Shown here piece after piece: positions 6,647 through 7,357 of a stretch of 44,494 nt of DNA. The DNA lies in NCBI GenBank assembly GCA_028716145.1, contig JAQUQL010000003.1, positions 1 to 44,494 on the forward strand, given 5' to 3'. The translations under genes were made by a program, and so were the position numbers. Origin of the DNA: Dehalococcoidales bacterium. Its GTDB lineage: Bacteria > Chloroflexota > Dehalococcoidia > Dehalococcoidales > CSSed11-197. The notes below the pieces were generated by a model, which saw only the letters and a list, made by a program, of their open reading frames with translations, did not search any database and had not been told where the DNA came from. Positions within the stretch are counted from its first letter, which is position 1. Every line of letters begins with the position of its first letter.

Positions 6647-7357
6647 TTACATATCCGGATTTGTGTTGTAAATGGCATATTCGATACCGGTCAGCAGACT
6701 ATCCAACTCCTCCGGTTTAGAGAGTTTTACGACGTATATCCAACCCCTCAAATATGGTTCGGCTTGCATGATGAGAGCATTGACGTAGAGATCTTCGTTT
6801 ACCTGTACGATTGTGCCACTCACGGGGCTGTACATGTCAACGTTCATTTTCTGGCCTTCAAAATTCCCCAGCCAGCCGTCATAAGCCAGGTCGCTGCCTT
6901 TCGACAGCAAGGTAACCTCCCCCCTTTCAACAGCTCCCAACAGTAGATGCATTTTATCGCTAAGCCCTATTACTGCCAGATCGTCGTGCAGTGGTTTTAC
7001 CCATACGTGTTCATAGGAATAGAGTCTATCGGTGGCAACCTTGCTGGTGCAGCCGACGGTATCTTCCAATGGCGGGTTTGTTTTAGGAGGCACATAAACA
7101 AAATCACCGTTGCCAGCTGTAGTTGTCGGCGGGGTAGTTGAGGTTGGTGTAGTGGTAGGTGGCGCAGTAGTGGTAGGTGTTGTCGAAGTGGGAGCAGTGG
7201 TTGTCGGGTCCTCTGAATTACAGCCGGTTGCAGCCGCAATCGATGTCAGTGCCAGGCTTCCGGTTATAAGCCCGGTGCTTTTCAAAAAGCTGCGCCTGGA
7301 TATTCCGCTCGGTGCAGATCCGGTGTTTTTACTCTTTTCGTCATTTGATTTTTTCAT
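6647..7357 (-). CDS. Tat-exported GcvH-like (lipoyl-domain) lipoprotein with Thr/Pro-rich linker
   Basis: 236 aa; ISRRSFLKSTG Tat motif, AATGC lipobox-like site, T/P-rich linker, then GcvH-like YSYEHVWVKPLHDDLAVIGLSDKM...EGQKMNVDMYSPVSGTIVQVNEDL...GWIYVVKLSKPEELDSLL; Lys170 aligns with the GcvH lipoyl-lysine; SD ggagg upstream. Confidence 0.85.
   Translation of the reverse strand: MKKSNDEKSKNTGSAPSGISRRSFLKSTGLITGSLALTSIAAATGCNSEDPTTTAPTSTTPTTTAPPTTTPTSTTPPTTTAGNGDFVYVPPKTNPPLEDTVGCTSKVATDRLYSYEHVWVKPLHDDLAVIGLSDKMHLLLGAVERGEVTLLSKGSDLAYDGWLGNFEGQKMNVDMYSPVSGTIVQVNEDLYVNALIMQAEPYLRGWIYVVKLSKPEELDSLLTGIEYAIYNTNPDM

Follow-up and report, generated by a model that had tools for sequence, protein, structure and literature searches.

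The window analysed here, a stretch of 44,494 nt, carries a gene for an H-protein-like domain placed behind what looks like an export leader, and the question it raises is what a lipoyl domain of this kind would do outside the cytosol in a bacterium without glycine cleavage.

Leader, linker and lipoyl domain of GcvHlp

The gene in question (6647–7357, minus strand, ATG start) encodes a protein of 236 aa, which we refer to as GcvHlp. The first-pass annotation had described it as a Tat lipoprotein with a lipobox-like site and a Thr/Pro-rich tether of about 30 residues leading into an H-protein fold, and this observation was confirmed. The leader contains the twin-arginine motif ISRRSFLK and the lipobox-like sequence AATGC, whose cysteine, Cys46, lies 26 residues past the twin arginine. 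It scores 17.5 against the NCBIfam profile TAT_signal_seq (TIGR01409, cut-off 16.7) and 16.5 against the Pfam profile TAT_signal (PF10518), which is under the cut-off of 22.7. Thr, Pro or Ser account for 29 of the 35 residues downstream of Cys46; an open reading frame of 125 aa on the opposite strand (7110–7487, plus strand), which spans this linker, arises from the repeat make-up of the sequence and is not a gene. The H-protein domain covers residues 112–228 (Pfam GCV_H, E = 3.9e-20, 72.4 bits, cut-off 22.2), has an extra conserved cysteine (Cys103) shortly before it and matches H-proteins in a PDB sequence search with E-values down to 8e-14. Within the domain the motif Ex2Kx10G, quoted as a lipoylation motif (PMC4518038), is complete (E167-GQ-K170-MNVDMYSPVS-G181), and Lys170, encoded by the codon at 6848–6850, holds the lipoyl-lysine position that had been assigned to it.

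We modelled GcvHlp with AlphaFold2 from an alignment of 22 rows containing the window protein, L006 and canonical GcvH from viral contigs; an earlier model built with two sequences only had a pLDDT of 36 and was discarded. The model reached a mean pLDDT of 84.9 and a pTM of 0.79. Structure prediction had been named by the first-pass annotation as a check on its reading, and in the model Lys170 sits not away from the hairpin but at the turn that joins two strands, E81-87 and E91-95 in the numbering of the construct. All 22 PDB fold matches with E<=0.001 were H-proteins or GcvH-like proteins, with a best TM by target of 0.94 and the nearest solved folds at about 0.9.

Relatives were searched for in the genus, the order, the class, a phylum sample and the gene neighbourhoods of the loci. 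Applying this search we found 22 members of the GcvHlp family, distributed over three families within a single order; they score at least 168 bits against the family profile, canonical GcvH of the phylum sample at most 125. In the tree, 21 of the 22 group in a single clade (UFBoot 97, SH-aLRT 93) that is separate from cytosolic GcvH, also from the small GcvH encoded in these genomes; the remaining member (L043) lies outside the clade on a long branch. An [S/T/N]RR motif with a cysteine 23–26 residues on was present in all 20 complete N-termini, the window protein included. The lipoyl lysine is invariant in the 21 clade members and the strict motif Ex2Kx10G is found in 16 of them, Glu at position -3 from the lysine being absent in L078, L082, L087 and L090 and replaced by Asp in L081. 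Further marks of the family are the cysteine just before the domain and the motif A-x-DR-x-Y. About 20 relatives share this combination of leader, linker and domain, so chance can be ruled out as its origin. Genome G110 holds six GcvHlp-like paralogues (loci L085, L080, L086, L087 and L088), and in L088 both the lipoyl lysine and the RR motif are lost. Two class-level candidates of 231–236 aa from G190 were rejected as lipoproteins: one is a plain GcvH of 131 aa (L106), and at the other no lipoprotein ORF was found. Viral contigs scanned with the lipoprotein family profile yielded no member, and a plasmid scan gave only the GcvH type among the matches listed; the relatives of ArsG on plasmids are distant.

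The operon around GcvHlp

The main clue to the function of GcvHlp is its operon neighbours, which were absent from the remarks of the first-pass annotation. The operon reads arsR-arsP-arsE-arsF-arsG-GcvHlp-lipB-lipA on one strand with no gap longer than 28 nt, and its features, by window position, are as follows.

5080–5946, minus strand: lipA, lipoyl synthase (TIGR00510, 369.3 bits, cut-off 310; 8-nt overlap with lipB)
5939–6622, minus strand: lipB, lipoyl(octanoyl) transferase (TIGR00214, 163.5 bits, cut-off 83.55; 24-nt gap to GcvHlp)
6647–7357, minus strand: GcvHlp, Tat-type lipoprotein with T/P/S linker and H-protein (lipoyl) domain (ORF, profiles, model)
7386–8093, minus strand: arsG, CcdA/DsbD-type transmembrane thiol-redox (or efflux) protein (NF040495, 251.8 bits, cut-off 200)
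8093–8593, minus strand: arsF-like lipoprotein (NF040494, 27.9 bits, under the cut-off of 60; 1-nt overlap with arsG)
8614–8859, minus strand: arsE, small thioredoxin-like protein with GPGCAKC (TIGR00412, 101.1 bits, cut-off 62; PF13192, 2.7e-27)
8881–9918, minus strand: arsP-type permease (PF03773, 272.8 bits, cut-off 32.3)
9925–10350, minus strand: ArsR/SmtB-family repressor with ECCVCE motif (NF033788, 83 bits, cut-off 55)
10362–10391, no strand: 15-nt inverted repeat TTCTTTAATGCGCAT/ATGCGCTTATAAGAA, candidate ArsR operator just upstream of arsR
10391–10420, minus strand: promoter-like site TTGACA-18-TACAAT upstream of arsR (11 of 12 consensus matches)

The total of promoter-like sites in the region is not above that of shuffles, and the site at 10391–10420 is proposed from its consensus match only. 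The window ArsG matches PF13386 (67.5, cut-off 24.9) and PF02683 (37, cut-off 27.1); the alignment shows cysteines in TM1 (GPCT) and TM4 (CPYS), the arrangement found in membrane proteins that carry electrons from thiols on one side of the membrane to thiols on the other. In the ArsF-like lipoprotein the motif FYESDxCFC, with its CxC, is invariant in the alignment. A thioredoxin fold for this protein was dropped, as a PDB profile search returned no relative with that fold. Elsewhere in the window a further protein bears a Tat lipoprotein leader of its own, a [2Fe-2S] subunit from the xanthine dehydrogenase/aldehyde oxidoreductase family (2358–3167, minus strand); it is adjoined by a leaderless molybdopterin subunit (77–2356, minus strand) that may be exported with it; a fused [2Fe-2S]/molybdopterin version lies beside a GcvHlp in L083 (2519–5590).

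Two operon types and other neighbourhoods

We found 16 of the 22 GcvHlp genes in ars-type operons of two types. Each type includes a CcdA-like protein and has a constant gene set in variable order. Type A, arsR-arsP-arsE-arsF-arsG-GcvHlp-lipB-lipA, occurs in the window, L037, L038, L039, L078, L079, L081 and L082 and, split over two contigs (L043, L104), in G004. Type B, arsR-arsD-arsA-c10-CcdA-like-GcvHlp and usually lipB-lipA, occurs in L042, L077, L084, L085, L089 and L090. The repressor gene arsR is absent from G005, which counts against the detoxification reading given below. The tree does not separate the GcvHlp proteins by operon type but intermixes them, in keeping with a shared function.

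The three conserved ArsA cysteines, which are established As(III)-binding residues, are kept in four of four type B proteins. The ArsD of this type scores above its curated cut-off (108 vs 90), and its Cys12/13/18 triad, an As(III) site according to Lin 2007 as cited in PMC10820871, is kept in six of six. Because ArsD and ArsA keep these cysteines, the operons are tied to arsenic or antimony better than by gene names. For type A the substrate would follow from NCBIfam naming, with ArsF under its cut-off, and this counts against an arsenic reading. The TM1 motif of ArsG is GPCT in all nine lipoyl-linked type A proteins vs SPCP in four ArsG without GcvHlp, a difference that may be an adaptation to the lipoyl partner or may reflect descent only. 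Members of this bacterial order also have ArsEFG operons that lack GcvHlp (L109-L111); such an operon can thus do without the lipoyl arm.

Six GcvHlp paralogues lie outside both operon types. Two are accompanied by a redox protein (DsbD_2 in L040, a MauE-type protein in L041), and four (L080, L083, L086 and L087) have neither ars genes nor a redox partner nearby. In L041 (8257–9931) and L040 (5435–9809) GcvHlp and lipA occur with an orphan protein of 425 aa without a Pfam match and with a divergent radical SAM protein; L041 also has a rhodanese lipoprotein directly after GcvHlp and a MauE/DoxX protein. In L078 (G054) the selenium genes YedE, YedF and a Se-S carrier lie directly upstream of the type A operon (622–4025), and a double-cubane reductase, a BadF-type activase and a NapH-type ferredoxin lie downstream of lipA (12073–16399). 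Parts of these flanking modules are seen again close to GcvHlp in L040 and L083 and close to lipB-lipA in L093. A DGC-domain protein fused to a GcvH domain is encoded in L091 (125–976), where a CcdA-like gene is found at 2966–3655.

Glycine cleavage and lipoate synthesis

The first-pass annotation had pointed to the lack of gcvP in the window, and this extends to the genome as a whole (a draft of 93% completeness), in which GcvP was not found. GcvP was likewise found in none of the six genomes of the genus and, above the cut-off, in none of 12 genomes of the other two families (drafts 52–97% complete). Apart from GcvHlp, the biotin/lipoyl-type domains found in the genus were a small cytosolic GcvH and a single biotin-type domain; the window genome's copy of the latter sits in a protein that by sequence resembles pyruvate carboxylase. 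We counted 18 lipB genes in the three families, of which 15 lie in ars-type operons, one beside a GcvHlp remnant and two elsewhere; the assembly of lipoate is thus linked mainly to the ars-type operon in these bacteria. In genomes that lack GcvP, the small cytosolic GcvH forms a pair with a dihydrolipoamide-dehydrogenase-like flavoprotein (L094 2878–4751, L095 6566–8383, L096 3922–5691), possibly a second case of a lipoyl protein with a non-glycine role.

A proposed function and its alternatives

That this is an extracytoplasmic, tethered lipoyl carrier with a role other than glycine cleavage, as the first-pass annotation proposed, is supported computationally by the fold, the lysine in its turn, the leader in 20 of 20 N-termini and the lack of GcvP above the cut-off. 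We further consider it somewhat probable that GcvHlp serves in an arsenic(al)-detoxification operon and is reduced via ArsG. LipB and LipA of the operon would attach lipoate to Lys170; both are cytosolic enzymes, so lipoylation would have to precede export. Tat exports folded proteins, which would explain its use for a lipoyl domain that leaves the cytosol folded and finished. Signal peptidase II and lipidation at Cys46 would anchor GcvHlp, and the Thr/Pro linker would allow the lipoyl domain to swing. ArsE, with its CxxC, is probably the cytosolic thiol donor to ArsG, which would move electrons across the membrane and hold the lipoyl group as a dithiol. Counting against this electron route, ArsG has been described as an efflux permease and not as an electron conduit (PMC9144182). 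At the outer face the dithiol could reduce, bind or hand over trivalent arsenic species, acting beside the ArsP permease and the ArsF lipoprotein in type A or with ArsD/ArsA in type B. Vicinal dithiols, dihydrolipoate among them, bind As(III) tightly (PMC7072575); direct binding of As(III) by the lipoyl group of GcvHlp is nevertheless the least certain step, and we put it forward with some doubt.

The paralogues outside ars operons and the selenium genes at L078 would allow a broader thiol-redox or sulfur/selenium role, which can be framed in two ways. GcvHlp could be a general extracytoplasmic thiol-disulfide carrier whose lipoyl arm, fed by CcdA/DsbD-type proteins, reduces disulfides or oxidised thiols, arsenic being one setting among others. 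Such a role would suit the variety of transmembrane thiol-redox partners between operons (ArsG, the type B CcdA, DsbD_2, MauE) and the four loci that lack both ars genes and such a partner; the share of GcvHlp genes in ars-type operons and the As(III)-binding cysteines retained by ArsD and ArsA make it rather unlikely. Alternatively, the protein could carry sulfur or selenium outside the cytosol as a tethered counterpart of the LbpA of sHdr systems, which is related to GcvH and functions in sulfur oxidation (PMC6067878). The rhodanese lipoprotein of L041 and the YedE transporter and YedF that border the type A operon of G054 are consistent with this, and sulfane sulfur can act as a signal for repressors of the ArsR type (PMC10451225, PMC12423496). 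Neither a sulfurtransferase gene nor a selenium gene is present in the window operon, however, and the As(III) sites of type B ArsD and ArsA are complete, so that we judge this reading to be distinctly unlikely.

A domain that is unlipoylated or biotin-bearing, and hence an inert or biotinyl module, is suggested by the Met after Lys170 (KMN, like the biotinyl motif MKM), by the five clade members without Glu at -3 and by the paralogue without the lysine. We consider this very improbable: the lysine is invariant in the clade, biotinyl carriers rank far under H-proteins in the fold search, where the latter reach a TM of about 0.9, and the operon contains lipB and lipA, and it was on the fold and these two genes that a biotin carrier was rejected. 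An ordinary GcvH of glycine cleavage with a misleading leader, to which the GCV_H domain would point, was already disfavoured and can practically be dismissed, given a genome draft without GcvP, the conserved Tat/lipobox leader and a score of 62 bits against the GcvH equivalog TIGR00527, far under its cut-off of 115.85.

Comparison with known systems

To our knowledge, lipoyl groups are known only as cytosolic or organellar swinging arms, in dehydrogenases, glycine cleavage, sHdr and GcvH-L, and lipoate is a sulfur cofactor classically poisoned by arsenic. If GcvHlp is the arsenic-linked carrier that we favour, the cofactor would be found in a new location and with a new use, on a lipoyl protein exported by Tat and anchored by lipid; a cofactor poisoned by arsenic would have been turned into a tool against it, a role both unexpected and directly testable. 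It would explain lipoate synthesis in genomes without glycine cleavage or a detectable lipoyl-E2, and would suggest a function for the CcdA-like ArsG together with a testable handling of arsenic species at the outer face. More tentatively, bacteria without glycine cleavage may have kept lipoate synthesis in an arsenic operon, with an exported, CcdA-reduced lipoyl dithiol as an arsenic-binding or arsenic-reducing handle. An exported GcvH-like lipoprotein was not found described earlier in the open-access literature.

The type A operon shares the order arsR-arsP-arsE-arsF-arsG, with ArsG and ArsE above their cut-offs, with the ArsEFG organoarsenical resistance operon that carries ArsP and ArsR (Chen 2019, as cited in PMC9144182), but adds GcvHlp-lipB-lipA and has an ArsF under the curated cut-off. 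Type B resembles the ArsDA arsenite metallochaperone/ATPase operons in its arsR-arsD-arsA genes with intact cysteine sites; unlike these, it has a CcdA-like protein, c10 and GcvHlp and no recognised ArsB/Acr3-like gene beside them. That GcvH relatives serve outside glycine cleavage is known from LbpA (PMC6067878) and GcvH-L (PMC4518038). LbpA of sHdr (PMC6067878, PMC10332631) is likewise encoded with lipoate-attaching enzymes, but it is cytosolic and uses sLpl(AB) and LipS1/S2, whereas GcvHlp has a Tat lipoprotein leader and, among its neighbours, ars genes and canonical lipB/lipA and neither shdr genes nor sLpl(AB)/LipS1/LipS2. GcvH-L of the SirTM/macrodomain operon (PMC4518038, PDB 5a35) shares with GcvHlp a GcvH-like sequence, an operon-borne lipoylation enzyme and a stress or redox setting; no leader is described for it, and its partners LplA2, SirTM and the macrodomain protein are not among the GcvHlp neighbours. 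Neither LbpA nor GcvH-L is described as exported or placed in an ars operon, and GcvHlp appears to differ from them in both respects. With GcvH itself it shares the fold, the lysine in the turn between two strands and Ex2Kx10G, but it lacks a GcvP partner and is set apart by its lipoprotein leader and linker, the A-x-DR-x-Y motif, the extra cysteine before the domain and a clade of its own.
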